Shown one piece after another: positions 5,314-30,858 of a DNA stretch of 48,618 nt. The stretch is from a virus: the IMG/VR virus record IMGVR_UViG_3300037507_001713, positions 1 through 48,618 of that record; one strand, written 5' to 3'. Within the stretch, counting starts at the first letter, position 1. Each line of letters begins with the position of its first letter. The notes under the pieces are model-generated. The model searched no databases. It was not told where the DNA came from and saw nothing but the letters and a program-made list of their open reading frames with translations. Made by a program: the position numbers and the translations under genes.

Positions 5314-6612
5314 TCAAGGTTTACGTCTCCTAACGCCTTTAGAATCTCCTGATGGACCTCCGCCACCAGAGCTACCTCCGCCACCAGAACCACCAGTGCT
5401 TCCACCAGTGCTTCCTGTTGCTGCACCAACTGCATTAATAGCAGCGCCTGCAGCCACAACGGCAGCAACTACCATTTCGGTCGCTTCTTCACGTTCTTCA
5501 TCTGACATATCAGCACCGATACTTCCAAGTGCTTGTAGGGCTTGACCAGGGTCATCAAATATTGCGCCAATTAACTCCGCAGGGTTCTCTAGTAGCACGA
5601 GGGCTGCAGCAACGTCTGCTGTAATGATAACTTCATTTCCGTTTTCATCCTGCCTAACCTCAACAGGAGTATCCGCGGGAAGGTCCTTATACTCAATGCC
5701 CGCGTCTTGAATTTGCTCTGATGTAAGAGTTTCTCCAGGGGCTACAGATTCAATAAGGGCTTCGGCTACCAACTCTTTTTCAGCAGTAGTTAACTTGCCA
5801 TCAGCAGATAGGGCCTCAGATAACGCTCCAACTTCTTCAGCAGTAACTTCTCCATCTGCGTTTAGAGCATCCATAACAGCCTCAGCATCGGCAGCAGAAA
5901 GCTTGCCATCAGATAGGACATCCTCAACCGCATTGACAACTTCCTCTTCAGGTGTGATAGGCTCAGACTCTTCAATAGGAGGTTCTAATGGTTCTGTGGA
6001 CGGATTTTCTTGCTCTGTTTCTGGTGACTCTGGTTCTGGTGTTGATTCCTCGGGTGTATCAACTTCCTCAACAGGCGCCTCGGGCTCTACGGGTTGCTCT
6101 TCGGGCTCTACCGGCTCTGGTTGGGGTTCTGTGGGTGTCTCTGGCTCTTCTGTGGAGGGCTCAGTAGGTGCGGGCTCTTGTGGAAGTGGCTCTGGTTCAG
6201 GCTCGGGCTCAGGTAAAGGTTCTGGAACAGGCTCAGGATCAGGTAAAGGTTCAGGCTCAGGAACAGGTTCAGGCTCTGGGGTTGGCTCTGGTAAAGGCTC
6301 AGGCTGTGGTTGTGTCTCTGGCAAAGGCTCAGAAGGATTTGTTGGCTGAGGAGCAGGCTCGGGCTGAGGCTGAGGCTGAGGCTCAGGTTGAGGAACAGGA
6401 GTAGGTTCAGGTGAAGAAGGTTGTGGTTGGGGTTGTGGCTCTGGCTGCGGTGCTGGTGGCTCTGGCGTTGGCGGCTGTGGAGTTGGCGCTGGTTCTTGAG
6501 GAACCGGAACTTGAAGAGCTGTGACAGCTGTTGCTACGCTAGCTGTTGCAGTATCCGCTAATTGATTTGCAGTATTAATCGCTGTAGTAGCCGTTGATTG
6601 GAGGGTAGTCAA
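5314..6612 (-). CDS. 3' part of frameshifted surface/fibre protein (Pro/Glu/Gln linker, EF-like repeats)
   Basis: A 432-residue frame. An N-terminal TA-rich helical part continues the pattern of the upstream frame. It is followed by about 160 residues of PEP/PQP repeats, then three EF/dockerin-like repeats ([34 protein letters not shown]). After these come a hydrophobic Ala/Val segment, a Gly/Ser-rich stretch and a basic tail (KGVRRRKP). The only start is TTG without a Shine-Dalgarno, and the frame stays open upstream through the 8-bp duplication at 6647-6662. It is almost certainly the second half of one protein begun at 6630-7898. Expression as it stands is doubtful. Confidence 0.6.
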
Positions 6613-7995: not shown

Positions 7996-8202
7996 ATGAC
8001 ACCTCAAGACTGGGCAGCGTTTGCGCTCTCGATAACTTCTTTAATTGGCGCATTTGCCATTATGGTTCGTTGGATGGTAAAACATTATCTATCTGAATTA
8101 AAACCAAATTCTGGTAGTAGTTTAAAAGATGCCGTTAACAGATTAGAATCAAGAATTGACGATCTATACGTAATGATCGCAGAACGAAATAACAAGGAGT
8201 AA
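7996..8202 (+). CDS. Small membrane protein, one TM plus coiled coil
   Basis: A 68-residue protein. A single transmembrane helix (about residues 8-27) is followed by a charged helical, probably coiled-coil tail (SLKDAVNRLESRIDDLYVMI). Similar one-TM proteins sit beside holins in actinophage lysis cassettes. A strong TTGGAG Shine-Dalgarno precedes the ATG, and the next gene starts 3 nt downstream. Lysis function is inferred from architecture. Confidence 0.5.
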   Translation: MTPQDWAAFALSITSLIGAFAIMVRWMVKHYLSELKPNSGSSLKDAVNRLESRIDDLYVMIAERNNKE

Positions 8203-14160: not shown

Positions 14161-14625
14161 ATGGCCACAGCATTCGTAGCATTAGACGGAGTACTAAGAA
14201 CAGAAGTAGGCGATCCCATAGCGGAAGGCGTCAAGCTTTTTCGTATTCTTGCACAACATTACCGGGTCATTATTGCCTCGGATCACAGCCCTAAGCAAAC
14301 AGATCACTGGCTTCGTACTAACCTGATAGTAGGGTATGGAGATATCTATGATGATAGATACTTCTTTGAAGGCCAGGACTTGCGAGCTCGGCAGCTAGCT
14401 ATAGCTCAAGCTCAAGGTCGAGTCGACCTATTCGTAGATCCAGACGCCGATAGGTGTGCTTACGCTTTGTCTAAAGGCGTACCAACTATGCTCTTTGCTT
14501 CCCCTAAATTTGTTAGACGCTCCCGAGAAGTACGTCCATGGCAGGACCTTAAAGAGGAGATTGAGAACCAACGTGCAGCTCTTCTGGCGGCTGAACTTGG
14601 CAGCAACATTAAGAGATTTGAATGA
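14161..14625 (+). CDS. HAD-like protein lacking the nucleophilic Asp
   Basis: A 154-residue protein with HAD-superfamily features: motif I region FVALDGVLRT, motif II-like IIASDHS, motif IV-like LFVDPDADRCAYALSKG. In HAD enzymes motif I is DxDG with the first Asp as nucleophile; here the first position is Ala (ALDG). It is therefore probably catalytically dead or non-hydrolytic. It overlaps the next gene by 4 nt (ATGA). Confidence 0.55.
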   Translation: MATAFVALDGVLRTEVGDPIAEGVKLFRILAQHYRVIIASDHSPKQTDHWLRTNLIVGYGDIYDDRYFFEGQDLRARQLAIAQAQGRVDLFVDPDADRCAYALSKGVPTMLFASPKFVRRSREVRPWQDLKEEIENQRAALLAAELGSNIKRFE

Positions 14626-16136
14626 ACATAGTTTTCATGGGCGGGGAAGTACCGTCTCACAGATTATTGTTAATTGATGCCGGTGTAAAGCACATATCTC
14701 TGAGCTACTGGGGCCTAGCTAAACGAGGCCTACCTAAGACTAAGAACTATCTATTATCAGAGAAGTATCCAGATGATATCAAGATATATCTTGATGGCGG
14801 CGGCCGGCACGCAGATGCAGCTGGGCTAAGCACCCGCGAGCTGCAGGATTACGCCGCATCCTTTGAGGACTTCATTGCAAATAACTATGATCATATTGCC
14901 GGGGTAATTGAGTTTGACTCACAAGTTCTAGGATCCGAATGGATCTCAGAACAACGCAAGACTTTGGGGTTTGAATTACAAGAAAAATACTGGCCAGTAT
15001 GGAAACCAGAAATGGGGCATGCTGCCCTGTTTGCACTGTCTGAACAATGGGAGAACGTTGCTCTACTAGGAGAGACCATAGATAGCGATACAACCTTAGC
15101 AGGGCGCACACGGGCCCTCAAGGCCCAGTTGGGCACCAACTTCCACGGTCTGGGTTGTGCCAAACCTGATAACTTGCGTCAAGTTCCTTTGGAGACTGCG
15201 AGCACTTTATCGTGGCTATCTCCCATGATGCGTGGTGAGACAATAGTTTGGGATACGACTAGACTAGTCCGGTATCAAAAGAAGCAAAAAGACCAGGCCC
15301 GCCCCCGTTATAAAAATGTTATAAATAAAGCAGGTTTAGACTTTGATAAGATTCTCAATGATGATAGCAATGAGGTAACTCGCCTCGCCATATGGTCCTA
15401 CTTAGAGCTGGAGAAGTCCTTGGATAAAAAGAAACCACCACACTTAACTCTCATAGATAACGAGAAGTTATCTGATAACAGTGTGCACACAGATGATCCC
15501 GGTTCTGCGGAAACTATGGGTATAGACCCTGATAATAGTGGTCTTGAGGTGCGGAAAGATTCTGCAGTAGAAGTACCTAAAATTGTAGTAAGAGATGCGT
15601 CAGAAACGCGTACTTTGCCAGTATTTGCGGTAAATACAAGAACAGTTTTGGATAAAGACAGTGATGGAAGAGACCTGATAAGAGACGTTCCAGTCATAGA
15701 AACTACACACTCTTCATTACGTCAATGTAATACATGTTTTGTTGCTGCCAACTGCCCGGCTTTTAAGCCAGATAATACTTGTGCGTTTAATTTACCGGTA
15801 GAGGTAAAGACTAAAGACCAACTTAAGGGTTTGTTAAATGCCATTATTGAAATGCAGGGCGCCCGGGTCGCTTTTGCCAGATATGCTGAAGAACTCAACG
15901 GCGGTTACCCAGATCCAAACACAGGACAAGAGATTGACCGACTATTTAAGATTGTTAAGAGTTTGAAAGAATTAGAGGAGAACAAAGAATTTGTCAGAAT
16001 GACCGTAGAACGGCAAACTTCAGGAGGTGTACTGTCAGCCTTGTTTGGTGATAAAGCTAACACCCTGAAGGAGATACCAAACGGCGGGATTTCTGAAGAA
16101 GAAACCACTAGAATAATCTCCGAGCATATAGACTAA
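14622..16136 (+). CDS. TGT/DpdA-like domain fused to Cys-rich C-terminal domain
   Basis: A 504-residue protein. Residues about 1-240 follow the order of the tRNA-guanine/DNA deazaguanine transglycosylase TIM barrel: IYLDGGG (56-61), VIEFDS, ENVALLG, NFHGLG (173-178), then ETASTLSWLS where TGT/DpdA usually have a nucleophilic Asp (SvDSxsW). The expected catalytic Asp is missing, so activity is uncertain. After an acidic linker comes CNTCFVAANCPAFKPDNTC, probably a metal site, and a helical end (MQGARVAF, EIDRLFKIVKSL). Family assignment is by motif order only. Confidence 0.4.
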   Translation: MNIVFMGGEVPSHRLLLIDAGVKHISLSYWGLAKRGLPKTKNYLLSEKYPDDIKIYLDGGGRHADAAGLSTRELQDYAASFEDFIANNYDHIAGVIEFDSQVLGSEWISEQRKTLGFELQEKYWPVWKPEMGHAALFALSEQWENVALLGETIDSDTTLAGRTRALKAQLGTNFHGLGCAKPDNLRQVPLETASTLSWLSPMMRGETIVWDTTRLVRYQKKQKDQARPRYKNVINKAGLDFDKILNDDSNEVTRLAIWSYLELEKSLDKKKPPHLTLIDNEKLSDNSVHTDDPGSAETMGIDPDNSGLEVRKDSAVEVPKIVVRDASETRTLPVFAVNTRTVLDKDSDGRDLIRDVPVIETTHSSLRQCNTCFVAANCPAFKPDNTCAFNLPVEVKTKDQLKGLLNAIIEMQGARVAFARYAEELNGGYPDPNTGQEIDRLFKIVKSLKELEENKEFVRMTVERQTSGGVLSALFGDKANTLKEIPNGGISEEETTRIISEHID

Positions 16137-21432: not shown

Positions 21433-23352
21433 CTAACGCATTCTCGAACGTTTTTTGATGGCACTTACTACGACCTGTTTTGCAAAGGGAAGCAGGTCTT
21501 TGGCATTGCTGATGCGGGAAAATACTTCTGCTTTGTGACGCAACTGCTCAAGGTTGAGTTGTTGGTGGTCTTCTACATAGTATTTGTATTCTTTATCATC
21601 CATGATTAGGGTCATAGCTGTCAACACCCCACGACGATTAATGCGTTCGATTAGCTCGTCATTTTTGTTTGTGTCGAACACGCCATCGGTTACTATGAAC
21701 AGCATCTTATTCTTCTTACGTGAAGCCATAAGTAACTGCTCAGCAGCAAGCAGGGTTGGATACGGATCCGTACCACCATTGCCATAGATGAACTTGTATT
21801 CAGTCTTGTGTGCAGGTTCATTACGTGTGTATGCAACCTCGGCTTGGTCATCAAATGCATAGACTGTTACCGGGGCTTGGATGTGTTCCAATGCACGCTT
21901 GATAGTCCAGCATGCAATAGATGCTTTCTTATCATTATGCCCACTAGACATTGAGCCGGAACGATCGACAAGGATGACTGCTTCGATATCACAGCCATCA
22001 TCACCTTCATCCCAACGGTCAAAGGCTTGATCAATTTCACAGCCTCTGATTACACGTTGCACGTTAAGACGACCGGTAGGTGTCTCTCTTTGCCACGTAG
22101 GTTCTGAGTCATCACGTAAGCGTTGTAATTCCTTAGCGAACTTACGATAAGAAATGATTGCTTCTTGAGGCACGGAAGTTGTATTAAACTTACCGCGTTT
22201 CGTGATGTCCTCGTGTTTACCGTCTCCACCAATGATTACACGTTGTTTGGTTTTGACATCAGCCTGTACGTCCTTGCGTGCTAGAACATCTTCGATAGCA
22301 TTGTTTAGCATGTCATTGATGTTGTCTGGCAAACCACCGAGGCTAGGTGCATGACCTGAACCTGCTTGTGTAGACGTTGCGTTATTTACATTCTGTTCTC
22401 GAATATCTAACGCTTCTTGAACAGATGTAGGTGCGCTATTTGTTGATGGGCCCGGTTTGTTTCCCTCATTGTTTGGATTATTGTTAGATTCACCAGACGA
22501 TGGTTGTGGGTTTGTGTTGGGCTGTGGTTGAGCCTTAGGTTTAGGAACATAAGTTGATTCTTTTGTACCGATACCTTTGGCACGCTCAGCGTCTTTCTCC
22601 TGAGCCTTGCCTGGCTCTGGTCGTCCTTTGGCTGTGGGGCTACGTTCACCGCACTTGTTTGGACCACCATCCATCTCAGGCAGCATGCCCATTGGCAAGC
22701 ATACCTCTTTGTAGAATCGTTCTACTAGTTCTTTTGCTCGTTCATAACCTTGCGGGAATGCAAGCAAACGATACTCGTCAACGATGTCAATGATTGCTGG
22801 GATTAGTTCGGGGAATGCAAACTCATCTCTGAATGCTTGTCTAATCTCAACAGGAAGATAACGACGACCACGAATGCAGACGTAATTACCATTGATATCT
22901 TCTGATGCACCTAGCCAACGAGCCACTGTGGCTGTTAGATATGGAGCAATAGATGGGTATCTACCAGTCAATAGAGTTTCGATACGTTGATCCTCCAAGA
23001 TGTTAAACGCTTGGAAGTATTGATTATCGACAACCCATTTGACTAGGTCTGTGCCTTTGCGAGGCGTATACAGGTGATGGGCTAGCTCGTGATAATTGAG
23101 GCCGTTAACCTGTGTCAATGTTTCTAAGTCCATGTCCTCAATCTCATTGAGGTTAATGTAAATAGATGCACCATCAGACCACGCAGGTGCGGGGCCATCT
23201 GGTACAACATTGACTATGACTGGGTCACCAGTTAGAACGCGGTCCGCCTGTTCGTACACGCGGCATAGTGCGTTAAGACGAACAGCTCTTTCCTGTTCCT
23301 CTTCTGCTCTGGCTTCATAATAACGACTGTTATCGAAATTATCAATTAACAT
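21433..23352 (-). CDS. CobT-like VWA protein with HExxH motif
   Basis: A 639-residue protein. The N-terminal part has NYHELAHHLYTP (residues about 87-96) and NILEDQRIE (117-125), the arrangement found in CobT/VWA-type proteins. A disordered Q/P/N linker (240-340) leads to a VWA domain with the MIDAS motif DRSGSMS (463-469) and IVTDGVFDT. With the adjacent AAA+ gene it forms a MoxR/VWA pair, as in cobaltochelatase CobS/CobT or RavA/ViaA, where the ATPase remodels a target through the VWA protein. The chelatase role is not proven. ATG at 23352 lies 2 nt after the upstream stop. Confidence 0.8.
   Translation of the reverse strand: MLIDNFDNSRYYEARAEEEQERAVRLNALCRVYEQADRVLTGDPVIVNVVPDGPAPAWSDGASIYINLNEIEDMDLETLTQVNGLNYHELAHHLYTPRKGTDLVKWVVDNQYFQAFNILEDQRIETLLTGRYPSIAPYLTATVARWLGASEDINGNYVCIRGRRYLPVEIRQAFRDEFAFPELIPAIIDIVDEYRLLAFPQGYERAKELVERFYKEVCLPMGMLPEMDGGPNKCGERSPTAKGRPEPGKAQEKDAERAKGIGTKESTYVPKPKAQPQPNTNPQPSSGESNNNPNNEGNKPGPSTNSAPTSVQEALDIREQNVNNATSTQAGSGHAPSLGGLPDNINDMLNNAIEDVLARKDVQADVKTKQRVIIGGDGKHEDITKRGKFNTTSVPQEAIISYRKFAKELQRLRDDSEPTWQRETPTGRLNVQRVIRGCEIDQAFDRWDEGDDGCDIEAVILVDRSGSMSSGHNDKKASIACWTIKRALEHIQAPVTVYAFDDQAEVAYTRNEPAHKTEYKFIYGNGGTDPYPTLLAAEQLLMASRKKNKMLFIVTDGVFDTNKNDELIERINRRGVLTAMTLIMDDKEYKYYVEDHQQLNLEQLRHKAEVFSRISNAKDLLPFAKQVVVSAIKKRSRMR
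22510..22521 (-). repeat. CCAACACAAAC motif, copy 4
   Basis: Sense strand, inside the linker of the VWA gene, read in frame as PNTN, a different frame from the PTQT copies. Confidence 0.8.
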
Positions 23353-23354
23353 AG

Positions 23355-24827
23355 TTATACCAGTCCGTTGACTTGTGCGTATTGACCCGCCCACTCCTTG
23401 AGTTGTTCTTCAGGAGATTTTCCTTCAGGTTCTTGTTCAAGGACAATAGGTATTTCAATACCAAAGTCTGTCTTGATGTTGTGTTCGTGAGTCTGGAATA
23501 CCAATCTAACGCTTGCTGCTTCGTCAGCACTGAAGTGAGCAATGAAGTTTTCCACTGCGAACTCATAGCCAAGAGCATCAACAAAGTTAACGAACTCTTG
23601 AAGCATGTTAGTTGAGATTGGTGTTTCGTACTGACCCTTGTTAGCTTCAACACGTAGTTGTTTTGCAACTACAAGTAACGCCTTAGATGTAACCAACTTA
23701 GACTCCACCTTGTCATCGTAATCCCAAGGGATTTGGATATCAAAGCGATTGCGGAATGCAAAGTTGAGCGGTGTTGTGCCAATGTAATCTGGATTCATAG
23801 TAGCGAAGATAGTGAGATCTGGATGAGCCTCAATAACTTCACCGTGGTGGTCTAGCAATGTAATAGAGCGACGACCATCTAACAATGAATATAGAACGGT
23901 ATAGATCTTAGGGCTGATGAAGTTAACCTCGTCAAGCAATAAGACGCCACCATTACGCACTACATCAGTTACCGGACCATCGATCCAAGCAAATGAACCA
24001 TTGCCATCTGATACGAACTTACCGGTCATTTGACTTGGCTCCATTGAAGCATTGCCTGAGACCGTAGCCATACGTAGGTTGCGTTCAGCAGCCCACGCTT
24101 CTACAGATGTGGTTTTACCTGGACCGGTAGGACCGTAGATTAGAACGTTGATGTTCTTACTACGAGCATAGTCAAAGATTTCAAAGTCTTGACGGGACCA
24201 GATGTCACGATGTACGTAGCGCTTTGCTAGTTCGATGCGTGGCACAGATGCCAATGATGCTTTAATCATTGGGCCCGTAGACTCTGCAACTCGTATAGGA
24301 GTTGGTTCGACTATTACCGGTGTTGGCGTTGTTTGTGTTGGTGCTGATACTAGCGGGACCGGATTTCCTGGCATACGGCGATTGTCAATTACATGAGCCT
24401 CAAGAGCATCATCACCTACACTTACTGCTTCATAGATTTCGCATAAGCGTTCTACGAATGACATAGTGTCTGTGCTTAGTGCTGCTTTGGTATGTGCTTG
24501 ACACGCTTTAGTGCCTAGGACTGGGGAATAACCTTTGTCCGTCATGGCACGCTCATCTGCTGATGTAACATATACAGCAACTGGTGTGCGTGTTAGCTTT
24601 TCGTCAGTACCTATCTGTCCCGTGATAGTGTCGAGGTCTGTTTCCTCCCACTTGTTGTGAGGACCTTTAGTCCCGTCAGTATCACGTGAATAGATTCGTA
24701 CATTTCCATCATGTGGAGTGATAAGAACCTGACGGCGCTTAGCCCCCATGGTTGGTTCGTACGACTCTGTGAATACAGCGATATCCATAGCTTTTACCCC
24801 TTCTTTGGTAATGGAATCGTTTGTCAT
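23355..24827 (-). CDS. CobS/MoxR-like AAA+ ATPase
   Basis: A 490-residue protein. An N-terminal region of about 160 residues and a Pro/Thr linker precede an AAA+ core: Walker A GPTGPGKT (232-239), Walker B VLLLDEVNF (about 295-303), sensor ATMNPDY and an arginine-rich lid. The sequence fits the MoxR/CobS branch. It probably acts with the VWA protein encoded 2 nt downstream. Both lie on the strand opposite to the B12-dependent RNR but close to it. A CCAACACAAAC motif is in the linker. Confidence 0.88.
   Translation of the reverse strand: MTNDSITKEGVKAMDIAVFTESYEPTMGAKRRQVLITPHDGNVRIYSRDTDGTKGPHNKWEETDLDTITGQIGTDEKLTRTPVAVYVTSADERAMTDKGYSPVLGTKACQAHTKAALSTDTMSFVERLCEIYEAVSVGDDALEAHVIDNRRMPGNPVPLVSAPTQTTPTPVIVEPTPIRVAESTGPMIKASLASVPRIELAKRYVHRDIWSRQDFEIFDYARSKNINVLIYGPTGPGKTTSVEAWAAERNLRMATVSGNASMEPSQMTGKFVSDGNGSFAWIDGPVTDVVRNGGVLLLDEVNFISPKIYTVLYSLLDGRRSITLLDHHGEVIEAHPDLTIFATMNPDYIGTTPLNFAFRNRFDIQIPWDYDDKVESKLVTSKALLVVAKQLRVEANKGQYETPISTNMLQEFVNFVDALGYEFAVENFIAHFSADEAASVRLVFQTHEHNIKTDFGIEIPIVLEQEPEGKSPEEQLKEWAGQYAQVNGLV
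24331..24341 (-). repeat. CCAACACAAAC motif, copy 5
   Basis: Sense strand, inside the linker of the AAA+ gene (codons APTQTTPTP). Confidence 0.8.
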
Positions 24828-27243: not shown

Positions 27244-27441
27244 TTAATCTTTAAAGAAAGATTTTGAATACAACTCATCCATTTGTGTGCGCTTATAACC
27301 TTCTTGTTTACGCTCATAGATGCGGTAAGACTGTGAGTCGTAGTATCTACTACGCCACATATATGCATAGGTTGTTATACCTATTGAATAAAACAATAGG
27401 AATAAAAATAACCACGATTGACTAGGCGTCATTGGAAACAC
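27244..27441 (-). CDS. Small membrane protein (one TM)
   Basis: A 65-residue protein. An N-terminal hydrophobic helix (SWLFLFLLFYSIGITTYAYMW) precedes a basic Tyr/Arg/Lys-rich tail. GTG at 27441 has AAAGGA well spaced; ATG at 27432 is an alternative. It overlaps the upstream gene by 20 nt. An inner-membrane accessory protein; role unknown. Confidence 0.5.
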   Translation of the reverse strand: MFPMTPSQSWLFLFLLFYSIGITTYAYMWRSRYYDSQSYRIYERKQEGYKRTQMDELYSKSFFKD

Positions 27442-27679
27442 TAGTTGTTTCCTTTCTTACTTTGCCTGTCTTCCAGTGTGGGATAGTTGGGTGGTCAACA
27501 CGACCGCCTGCTGCTTTCCAGGCTTCACGCTTCTCATGGTTGCTTGCACTGCGACCGTTAATACGACCTGGTCTAGACTCAAACTTGGATTTGACTCCAT
27601 CTGGGCCAGGATTCTTTTTCCATGCTTTGCCATTAGGTCGGCTATCATTTCTTGAACCGCCTGATTTTTTCCCTGCCAT
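27422..27679 (-). CDS. Basic 85-aa protein
   Basis: A Lys/Arg/Gly/Asn-rich protein (MAGKKSGGSRNDSRPNGKAW; RINGRSASNHEKREAWKAAG), probably nucleic-acid binding and partly disordered. AAAGGAG precedes the ATG, with a CCAACACAAAC motif 27-37 nt upstream. No known family. Confidence 0.5.
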   Translation of the reverse strand: MAGKKSGGSRNDSRPNGKAWKKNPGPDGVKSKFESRPGRINGRSASNHEKREAWKAAGGRVDHPTIPHWKTGKVRKETTSVSNDA

Positions 27680-29104: not shown

Positions 29105-29707
29105 TTGTGCCCCTCTCAATAAAAATAGAACGGGAGGTTTCCTATACCCTCCCGCTCTACTTCCCTTCTCTAGGTTATCTATCTCCCACTGAGATAGATA
29201 GAGGACACACTGAATTACTGAAGGAATTGCGTGAGACTCACAGCCACAGGCCCTCTTGCGTCGTTTCACTCTGTATGCAGCATCGGTCGCGTCTCTTACT
29301 ACATACTCCACTCTTACTTAGGTAGGTAACTATCTCAGCGCCTGTGCCTCGACACCTAAGTCCGTCCTGTTTCGCTTCTTCACGCCCTCTCTATCTTCAT
29401 AGTTACACCCCAATAGAGATTTCGTTCTCGATGCAATCAACAGCCTATTCAGTGTGCCCTCTGTCCATCTCAGACTTCGCGGGGAAGAATTGGTGTATTA
29501 CCAATGAGAGGCACACCAAACGAGGGATGTTATACGGCCATTTTCGGGGGGACGAGTGGAACTATGTAAGTAGATGTGTATACATACATAACTGCGCCAA
29601 GCGGAAGTCAGACGAGACCACATCTAGTGCCTCTGACAATACTTACCAACCGGTGGGTATCCGTGCTTGATGTGCCTTCCATCAGCAATACTAAAAAAGC
29701 GGGGGGA
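29105..29707 (-). ncRNA. Candidate large structured noncoding RNA
   Basis: No credible gene exists in about 600 nt between two minus-strand genes. Minus-strand folding elements, 5' to 3': TAGATGTG/CACATCTA (29571-29626), TTGGTGT/ACACCAA (29490-29519), CTTC/GAAG (29475-29487), and a 16-bp long-range helix AGAGGGCACACTGAAT with ATTCAGTGTGTCCTCT (29447-29462 with 29200-29215, one G-U). This helix encloses a pseudoknot of an 8-bp (29326-29333/29399-29406) and a 7-bp stem (29316-29322/29355-29361). A 10-bp hairpin TATCTATCTC/GAGATAGATA and an intrinsic terminator close it. This layout resembles large ornate phage RNAs such as GOLLD or ROOL in style; class unassigned. Confidence 0.6.
29116..29159 (-). 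terminator. Intrinsic terminator ending the noncoding interval
   Basis: On the minus strand AGAGCGGGAGG pairs with CCTCCCGTTCT (one G-U) around a 10-nt loop and is followed by ATTTTTATTG. It lies directly before the 29104 start codon, so it most likely ends an RNA made from 29.1-29.7 kb. Confidence 0.8.
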
Positions 29708-29911
29708 TTACTGTCTACCTGATGACTTACCATCTAATAGATGAGGACTATCCTTCTCTACAATGCCAAAGCCTTGCTTAGGATTGAGAACAAGTCTGTA
29801 GTCTCTTGCTACTTCATAATTGGCTTTGTAACTGCCACAGGTTGGACAGGTGTTCTTACCTATCTCCCAACGAGCAGGAGATACAGGCTGTCCGCAAACT
29901 ACGCAATTCAT
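29708..29911 (-). CDS. Zinc ribbon protein, 67 aa
   Basis: MNCVVCGQPVSPARWEIGKN followed by CPTCGS: a CxxC...CxxC zinc ribbon, then an alpha/beta tail (YEVARDYRLVLNP). AAAGGA precedes the ATG. It is flanked on both sides by long structured noncoding DNA. Function unknown; RNA or DNA binding is possible. Confidence 0.6.
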   Translation of the reverse strand: MNCVVCGQPVSPARWEIGKNTCPTCGSYKANYEVARDYRLVLNPKQGFGIVEKDSPHLLDGKSSGRQ

Positions 29912-30333
29912 AACTATCCTTTCTTACTATCTTGATAGATAGTGAGAGATACATAGGAATACATTTACACTGGCTCTCAGCGACCCATGTATCTTTCACA
30001 ACCTACCTGATAACAGACCTAGACCCTAGTCGTAGACCTGGTGTGTCTCTCAATGCTCATAGTTATGTAATTAGCAGTAGCCAATTATGTATGATGAGAG
30101 ATAGCTCACATTGTGAGATGAGAAAGCCCTAGCCGACATTGTGAAGGGGACGGCTAGGGCTTCTCGATAGACAGAAGACACGATAACAGCAGGCTCTACT
30201 CGGGGGAGATAACTGGTTCCCTATGGCTACGAACCAATAGGGCTTTCTCCACTCCCCATCTATACCCATAGGGATACTATGGACATAGAAAGGAAGTGGG
30301 CGGGGGTTTTCCCCCACCCACTAACTTGTCTAA
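29912..30333 (-). ncRNA. Second structured noncoding interval
   Basis: About 420 nt without a credible gene. It has a 12-bp perfect hairpin AAGCCCTAGCCG/CGGCTAGGGCTT (30124-30162) and CCATAG/CTATGG near 30270. Crossed stems TGGTTC/GAACCA and CCTAT/ATAGG (30214-30241) form an H-type pseudoknot pattern. AGATACAT/ATGTATCT (29947-29994) and a hairpin in the 29911 leader complete it. The interval begins after the terminator at 30296-30321. It may encode a separate ncRNA or a long leader of the zinc-ribbon gene. Confidence 0.45.
30296..30321 (-). terminator. Strong terminator hairpin
   Basis: On the minus strand GTGGGTGGGGG pairs with CCCCCGCCCAC around AAAA, followed by TTCCTTTCT. It lies 12 nt after the stop of the 30858 gene. 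Confidence 0.85.
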
Positions 30334-30858
30334 CTAAGCAGACACTTTCTCTGATAGGAGAACGAACTCCAACTTAGCCTGAGCGGAAGCAATTAGGTCT
30401 TCCAACTCTTGGCGTGCTTTCGGTGTCTTGAGGATAGTCACCTTATCGAGAGCCTTGCGGGCTTGGGCGATAGAGGCTTCAGCATCAAGTCCGAACTTGG
30501 TGCGCTCTGCTTGGGCAATAGCAACGGAAGTTGCGATTTGGGTTTCCATCTGGTTTATCTGGGAGATGAACTCATCTTTGTCATAGTCCAAGATGGTGTC
30601 AATGACATCATACTTCTTGGAGATAACATCACGCATAGAGTAGACCTTATCTGGGTCTACGCCATACTTGTATGAGATGAAGCCCCCGAATAGAACGAGA
30701 GCCTTAGCAGAGTCCAACTTCTCACCACTCTGGTAGAAGTTAGATGGGACAAGCGTCTTATCTGCGCTGAAGTGCTTACTCGCTTGCTTGATGGACTCAA
30801 CAGAGCCACCCTTGCCACGAGTCGCAAGTAGGGCGGATAGGGATTCGCGTGCTGACAT
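30334..30858 (-). CDS. Unknown 174-aa helical protein
   Basis: A mostly helical protein: SARESLSALLATRGKGGSVE, then YKYGVDPDKVYSMRDVISKK, then a long Ala/Glu/Lys coiled-coil-like C-terminus. It is the first gene of the leftward arm, after a 340-nt spacer with repeats. Its codons look more GC-rich than its neighbours'. The position suggests an early gene; function unknown. Confidence 0.5.
   Translation of the reverse strand: MSARESLSALLATRGKGGSVESIKQASKHFSADKTLVPSNFYQSGEKLDSAKALVLFGGFISYKYGVDPDKVYSMRDVISKKYDVIDTILDYDKDEFISQINQMETQIATSVAIAQAERTKFGLDAEASIAQARKALDKVTILKTPKARQELEDLIASAQAKLEFVLLSEKVSA

Follow-up and report, generated by a model that had tools for sequence, protein, structure and literature searches.

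The locus considered here, the minus strand of positions 29105-29707 in the DNA of an uncultured virus, raises the question of whether this interval encodes a structured RNA and, if so, how such an RNA might act. The window, that is the whole stretch of 48,618 nucleotides that was analysed, corresponds to positions 1-48,618 of the IMG/VR record IMGVR_UViG_3300037507_001713. A preliminary description, made from the sequence alone, had proposed that the interval is a structured noncoding RNA of about 600 nt that could not be assigned to a class. Apart from the size, this proposal is supported: no Rfam family is matched, and the interval contains a noncoding, folded RNA of about 300 bases, not previously described, which we call B. 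A companion element upstream, which we call A, had been missed.

Relatives of the RNA were drawn from IMG/VR contigs by means of an exact 16-mer from the RNA, and about a dozen distinct members, on contigs of up to 104 kb (L numbers below), came from scans with RNA motifs and neighbouring proteins. Long conserved blocks connect the window with its relatives (blastn, nhmmer), and the longest of these suggest that the window is about half a genome. The carriers are a group of uncultured viruses related to actinobacterial phages. Since the terminase is 50-52% identical to that of Streptomyces phage BRock and its relatives, the best-matched isolated phages, an actinobacterial host is likely, this being an inference from terminase similarity. 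No match to the RNA was obtained in GTDB genomes with a 22-base pattern, and there were no DNA matches in phage and plasmid records.

The conserved RNA of B spans approximately 29510 to 29176 (about 295-335 nt), to which a local terminator is added. The first third of the flagged interval on the minus strand (29511-29707) is not conserved, and the size of about 600 nt therefore failed for the conserved part. The two portions are:
29188-29481, minus strand: core of B (about 294 nt; z -5.0), matched by covariance model R1 and supported by covariation
29482-29510, minus strand: lead-in GUAAUACACCAAUUCUUCCCCGCGAAGU, conserved in the window-type clade

The interval 29105-29707 folds better on its minus strand than all 20 shuffles (z -4.70), the plus strand being weaker (z -2.53), and the core (29481-29188) reaches a z of -5.00 against 200 shuffles. 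All ORFs within 29105-29707 are short, and in the core stops are present in all six frames in 12 of 12 sequences. The claim that no credible ORF exists thus held for the conserved core; a genuine gene does lie immediately beyond the interval, at 29708-29911. A promoter scan gave matches at chance level only. As a separate observation, the 8-mer TTCCCCGC, located where B begins in the window clade, occurs again in contig L226 at 1456, 3046, 3183 and 3428 (plus strand), mostly in intergenic positions, and is possibly a regulatory or repeat motif there.

By sequence comparison, B is composed of a long closing helix (P1), a multi-branch interior, and two hairpins, c and b, which a kissing interaction of 8 bp locks together:
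29447-29472, minus strand: 5' strand of P1 (segment S2), UGAGAUGGACAGAGGGCACACUGAAU, forming a helix with 29190-29215
29190-29215, minus strand: 3' strand of P1 (segment S3), forming a helix with 29447-29472
29441-29444, minus strand: 5' strand of P2, pairing with 29217-29220
29388-29419, minus strand: hairpin c (29419-29413/29394-29388), whose loop holds kissing strand a
29399-29406, minus strand: pseudoknot strand a, GUAACUAU, pairing with 29326-29333
29326-29333, minus strand: pseudoknot strand a', AUAGUUAC, pairing with 29399-29406
29316-29361, minus strand: hairpin b (29361-29354/29323-29316), which crosses a/a'
29344-29342/29338-29336, minus strand: inner 3-bp stem of hairpin b, with the best covariation E-values
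29246-29370, minus strand: helix e (29370-29366/29250-29246), enclosing hairpins b and d, with 4 of 5 pairs changed on both sides
29273-29306, minus strand: hairpin d (29306-29299/29280-29273), with 5 of 8 pairs changed on both sides
29231-29241, minus strand: hairpin f (GUGA-GUC-UCAC), with 98% of cells paired and 2 pairs changed on both sides

All the helices that had been proposed held. The 16-bp long-range helix 29447-29462/29200-29215 is part of a 25/26-bp helix (29472-29447/29215-29190), and the P1 duplex is worth -25 to -50 kcal/mol in every lineage; together, P1 and P2 present 19 of 29 pairs changed on both sides among 13 sequences. The 8-bp stem between 29326-29333 and 29399-29406 corresponds to helix a/a', in which 89% of cells are paired and 5 of 8 pairs have changed on both sides, and the 7-bp stem 29316-29322/29355-29361 is really the 8-bp helix b/b' (29354-29361/29316-29323), with double changes in 3 of its 8 pairs. 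The two stems cross, forming the pseudoknot that had been claimed. Moreover, a/a' is a loop-loop (kissing) contact, joining the loop of hairpin 29419-29388 to that of hairpin 29361-29316.

The covariation alignment comprised 13 sequences and 72 pairs and was made with MAFFT without use of the structure. Pairing is kept in 91.1% of the cells of these pairs against 80.6% in shuffles (0 of 500 as high), and 43 of the 72 pairs have changed on both sides (16.6 in shuffles). The covariation score of 0.358 fell to 0.12 or less when the partners were slid by 1-3 columns. We also performed a neutral test in which evolution was simulated from the window sequence along the inferred tree (1000 runs, 65 pairs): broken cells in B numbered 47 against a neutral mean of 190 and a minimum of 115, and double compensating changes were found in 24 pairs (neutral mean 9.4, maximum 19). 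The support for individual pairs is weak, the best E-value being 0.04 (one pair) in the open test, with five pairs below 0.05 in the structure-restricted test. These values are modest because only 13 sequences were available, the per-pair calculation on 12-13 sequences being underpowered. In the paired positions of B, 59 cells are G-U and 9 are A-C, and this large excess of G-U indicates that the minus strand is the RNA.

The strongest independent test of B came from detection by structure. A structure (covariance) model, R1, was built from 11 sequences, and a model R2 from the same alignment without base pairs; R1 matched B in all 14 B-holding sources searched. Two of the contigs, L242 and L243, had been fetched through protein M and not through the RNA. 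L243 was matched by R1 with 76 bits (E ~1e-26), the sequence-only R2 giving nothing at E<=10, so that this contig was rescued by structure-only signal, and in L242 the score rose by 77 bits, from 129 (R2) to 206 (R1). By sequence comparison, the fold 29481-29188 is shown to be selected as RNA on the minus strand and to be noncoding, and B is very probably a conserved noncoding structured RNA. The pseudoknot is supported by covariation and the RNA family itself is well supported. Three outcomes that the preliminary description had named as refuting it (no covariation among homologues, pairing no better than in shuffled sequence, a conserved ORF across the interval) were all checked and none was obtained: covariation is strong, pairing exceeds that of shuffles and no ORF is conserved.

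B is present in a single copy in 12 of 12 records searched, the weaker second matches in these 12 records being the inverted arm of P1 or chance. With model R1 it was not found in Streptomyces phage BRock (L231, KX925554). This phage possesses at 103322-103903 an unannotated stretch of about 580 nt, beside the gene of an 'RNA-binding protein' (gp191) and within a tRNA-rich region, which is possibly an RNA locus in its own right.

No match of B to a known class was obtained. Rfam 15 gave 0 matches at the gathering threshold in the window and 7 relatives, and at E<=10 only chance-like matches, none involving 29105-29707. The GOLLD model (RF02032) found nothing over the cut-off in the window and 11 relatives, apart from one spurious 7-bit match elsewhere, and was silent in cmscan up to E 10. 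The ROOL model (RF03087) gave nothing at E<=10; its control was silent too, which makes this a weak test, and the all-Rfam cmscan was equally silent. GOLLD, ROOL or another Rfam family are thus not supported by the model searches. A group I intron was rejected by inspection, as the order of crossed helices and the missing core motifs do not fit. A Ro60/Y RNA system was likewise rejected: the TROVE (Ro60) protein PF05731 is absent from 13 records, some of them fragments, in a search whose control rang. ARAGORN detected no tRNA genes in the window or in 14 loci.

A and B belong to a single gene cluster and are on its sense strand, the relevant features being:
30334-30858, minus strand: gene U, directly upstream of A (synteny)
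29984-30326, minus strand: A, a second structured RNA (about 340 nt), directly after gene U (30334-30858)
29708-29911, minus strand: zinc-ribbon gene (67 aa), between A and B and not part of the RNA
29116-29159, minus strand: intrinsic terminator after B, identified from its fold

Element A folds with a z of -5.86 (29990-30332) and is conserved in the B-holding contigs wherever the region is covered, as well as in L226, which lacks B. Its hairpins 30288-30260, 30163-30122 and 30080-30003 are kept beyond neutral expectation, 21 cells being broken where 105 were expected (1000 runs, minimum 49); the neutral test gives no support to its GC-rich first hairpin nor to the stems of 30257-30203. Protein U is predicted by AlphaFold to be all-helical, and no PDB match was found for its fold. 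The zinc-ribbon protein is conserved in L003, L004, L006, L010, L013, L014, L154 and L226. One continuous RNA of 1.2 kb, composed of A, the zinc-ribbon ORF and B, had been suggested by blastn. It was rejected because genes part A and B in L154 and L139 and because the zinc ribbon is a conserved gene. In these two relatives about 3-4 kb and several genes separate A from B, and in L242/L243 the distance is about 3.5 kb; such distances in distant relatives indicate that they are two elements.

Part of A is shifted within the element in L139 and L154. The sub-module concerned (GGCUACUG ... CAGGUCU ... UUAUCAG) forms the 3' end of A in the window clade (30326-29984) and is placed inside the second hairpin in L139 (~6140-6600) and L154 (4530-4960), a change of position that amounts to a domain rearrangement within a structured RNA.

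The gene that follows B varies: it is D in the window, L003 and L013, a 5537-like gene in L008/L009/L011, M in L139 and L154, and C or others elsewhere. This persistence of B in front of different genes argues against the control of one downstream gene. The terminator with a U tract that had been claimed at 29116-29159 held in the window; it is found also in L003, L008/L009/L011 and L014, and not in L006, L230, L013, L139 and L154, and therefore is not a defining part of B. In L006, L013 and L230 genes come directly after B without a terminator.

Some further features of the surroundings were observed. Between B and gene M, just upstream of M, L154 (~8030-8065) and L139 (at the corresponding place) have a hairpin, CCAAUGUAGAU..GUCAAAG..UUUACAUUGG / CAUGUAAGC..GUCAAAG..UUUACGUGGG, which looks conserved with compensating changes. 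In the window, 27422-27679 (minus strand) encodes a small protein with the conserved signature KKNPGP ... VNGRS..SHAKREAWKAAGGRADH..IPHWKTG, whose order relative to B varies among relatives. On the same strand as A and B, and downstream of both, 21433-24827 encodes an AAA ATPase (MoxR-like, PF07728) and, after it, a protein that weakly matches a VWA domain. On the plus strand, 16175-18205 matches the ribonucleotide reductase alpha domain and a B12-dependent (class II) insertion domain; just before it, a 504-aa ORF (14622-16136) matched no Pfam family.

A possible relationship between A and B is given by segments that can pair in alternative ways:
30166-30181, minus strand: segment S1 in A, GUGUCUUCUGUCUAUC, able to form 16 pairs with 29469-29454 of B
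29176-29200, minus strand: hairpin S3:S4 (UAUCUAUCUC/GAGAUAGAUA), whose 5' arm is common with P1

The first 12 nt of S1, GUGUCUUCUGUC, are identical in all B-holding relatives examined. Pairing of S1 with S2 is possible in every B-holding lineage (8 to 16 bp), and all the variants of the 8-nt core of S2 among lineages still pair with S1. The S1:S2 duplex has a z of about -2 to -4, i.e. it is only about 2 to 4 standard deviations better than shuffles. In L226, A is present after U, and neither B nor the S1 motif is found; this co-absence rests on one case and on an incomplete contig. A matrix of cross-lineage pairings revealed that A pairs equally well with the B of other lineages, and lineage-specific matching was therefore rejected. 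As such matching is lacking and P1 places its own constraint on S2, covariation does not prove S1:S2. The 5' arm of hairpin S3:S4 also belongs to P1, so that the hairpin and the lower part of that helix cannot form together. The hairpin persists through compensating changes in 9 of 13 lineages (the window, L003, L006, L010, L013, L014, L230, L242 and L243), is weaker in L008/L009, and is absent in L139 and L154, where S4 is missing. Strands are thus common to three alternative pairings, S1:S2, S2:S3 and S3:S4. An A-B strand-exchange switch can be inferred from them, which we hold to be somewhat less likely than not.

The reading that we favour, with no more conviction than an even chance would give, is that B is a trans-acting structured RNA under the control of its upstream partner A; its function is unproven and there are no expression data. 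B would be freed from the operon transcript by cleavage or termination and would work as a discrete RNA, its folding being governed by strand exchange. In a first state S1 in A would hold S2, the 5' strand of P1, with S3 folded on the local hairpin strand S4; in a second state S2 and S3 would close P1 and lock the core. A might then be a chaperone, timer or partner of B, either holding the 5' strand until P1 closes or releasing B from P1. That B acts in trans is the part we are more inclined to accept than to reject, although this is inferred without expression data. The folded RNA would most likely serve as a scaffold that binds host machinery or itself, an inference for which the binding partner is unknown.

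Two rivals to the trans-acting reading are serious. In the first, B would be a self-assembling scaffold of the GOLLD/ROOL kind, in which kissing loops join copies into a multimer, A being either a separate RNA or the leader of that same particle. This is possible, multimerisation being untested. In its favour are the multi-branch fold with an 8-bp loop-loop pairing that could form between copies as well as within one, the near-palindromic GUGAGUCUCAC hairpin, and the fact that B is encoded by a phage and lacks a conserved protein partner, a situation also reported for GOLLD and ROOL (PMC12286853). Against it, GOLLD was not matched in 12 records nor was any Rfam family, ROOL gave nothing with a silent control, the core of about 295 nt is shorter than GOLLD or ROOL, and no tRNAs are nearby.

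In the second rival, A and B would be cis-acting operon elements (antitermination/attenuation, mRNA processing or stability) and B would never be a separate RNA, which is also possible. It is consistent with their common place on the sense strand of one cluster, with A always following gene U, as nutR follows cro in lambda, with S3:S4 and P1 being mutually exclusive like attenuator hairpins, and with the relatives L006, L013 and L230, where genes follow B directly without a terminator. RNase III cuts long near-perfect duplexes, and P1 is a duplex of this type. Nevertheless, at least five relatives have a different gene downstream and in others a terminator separates B from the gene that follows, a 295-nt core with a conserved interior exceeds the needs of an attenuator, and no conserved U-tract follows S3:S4.

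A by-product of DNA-level constraint (e.g. replication inverted repeats) or of chance is all but excluded: inverted repeats do exist in the DNA and the plus strand also folds somewhat better than its shuffles, but the 59 G-U against 9 A-C cells, the structure-only rescue of L243, and double changes exceeding all shuffles and slid controls speak against it.

A bolder possibility is that A and B, which flank protein genes within one cluster, are two halves of one RNA machine joined by S1:S2, S2:S3 and S3:S4, or that B is a self-assembling particle gated by A. The companion element leads to concrete predictions that set S1:S2 against S2:S3, and compensating mutations would put the A-B pairing to the test. 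The core of about 295 nt is small enough for probing and cryo-EM, and with a BRock-like terminase the actinobacterial hosts are the first place to seek an experimental system.

Among known systems, the HK022 put and lambda nut sites are RNA elements in a phage operon that act on transcription in cis, nutR following the first gene of the operon (cro in lambda). A and B resemble them in lying within a phage operon and differ in being several times larger (about 340 and 295 nt); the sequences were not compared. In bacterial pre-rRNA, the processing stems are long helices that close off a compact structured RNA as a loop, an arrangement similar to that of P1 around the core, whereas B is phage-encoded and has no rRNA similarity. 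GOLLD and ROOL are larger RNAs, often beside tRNA genes, which form cages (PMC12286853). B resembles ROOL as a phage or prophage RNA of unknown function with a conserved kissing loop and no known protein partner, and differs in its smaller size and in having no tRNA island. GOLLD is known from lakes and from actinobacterial (Mycobacterium) tRNA arrays; like it, B is large, ornate, noncoding and encoded by a phage, contains pseudoknots or kissing loops, and combines a conserved 3' region with a variable 5' region. B differs from GOLLD in the length of the core (about 295 nt against over 800 nt), in having no tRNAs nearby and in being accompanied upstream by another RNA, one segment of which is complementary to it. 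Only a few large structured RNAs, GOLLD and ROOL among them, are known from phages, all of unknown role, and B adds to them a family with a well-defined core.
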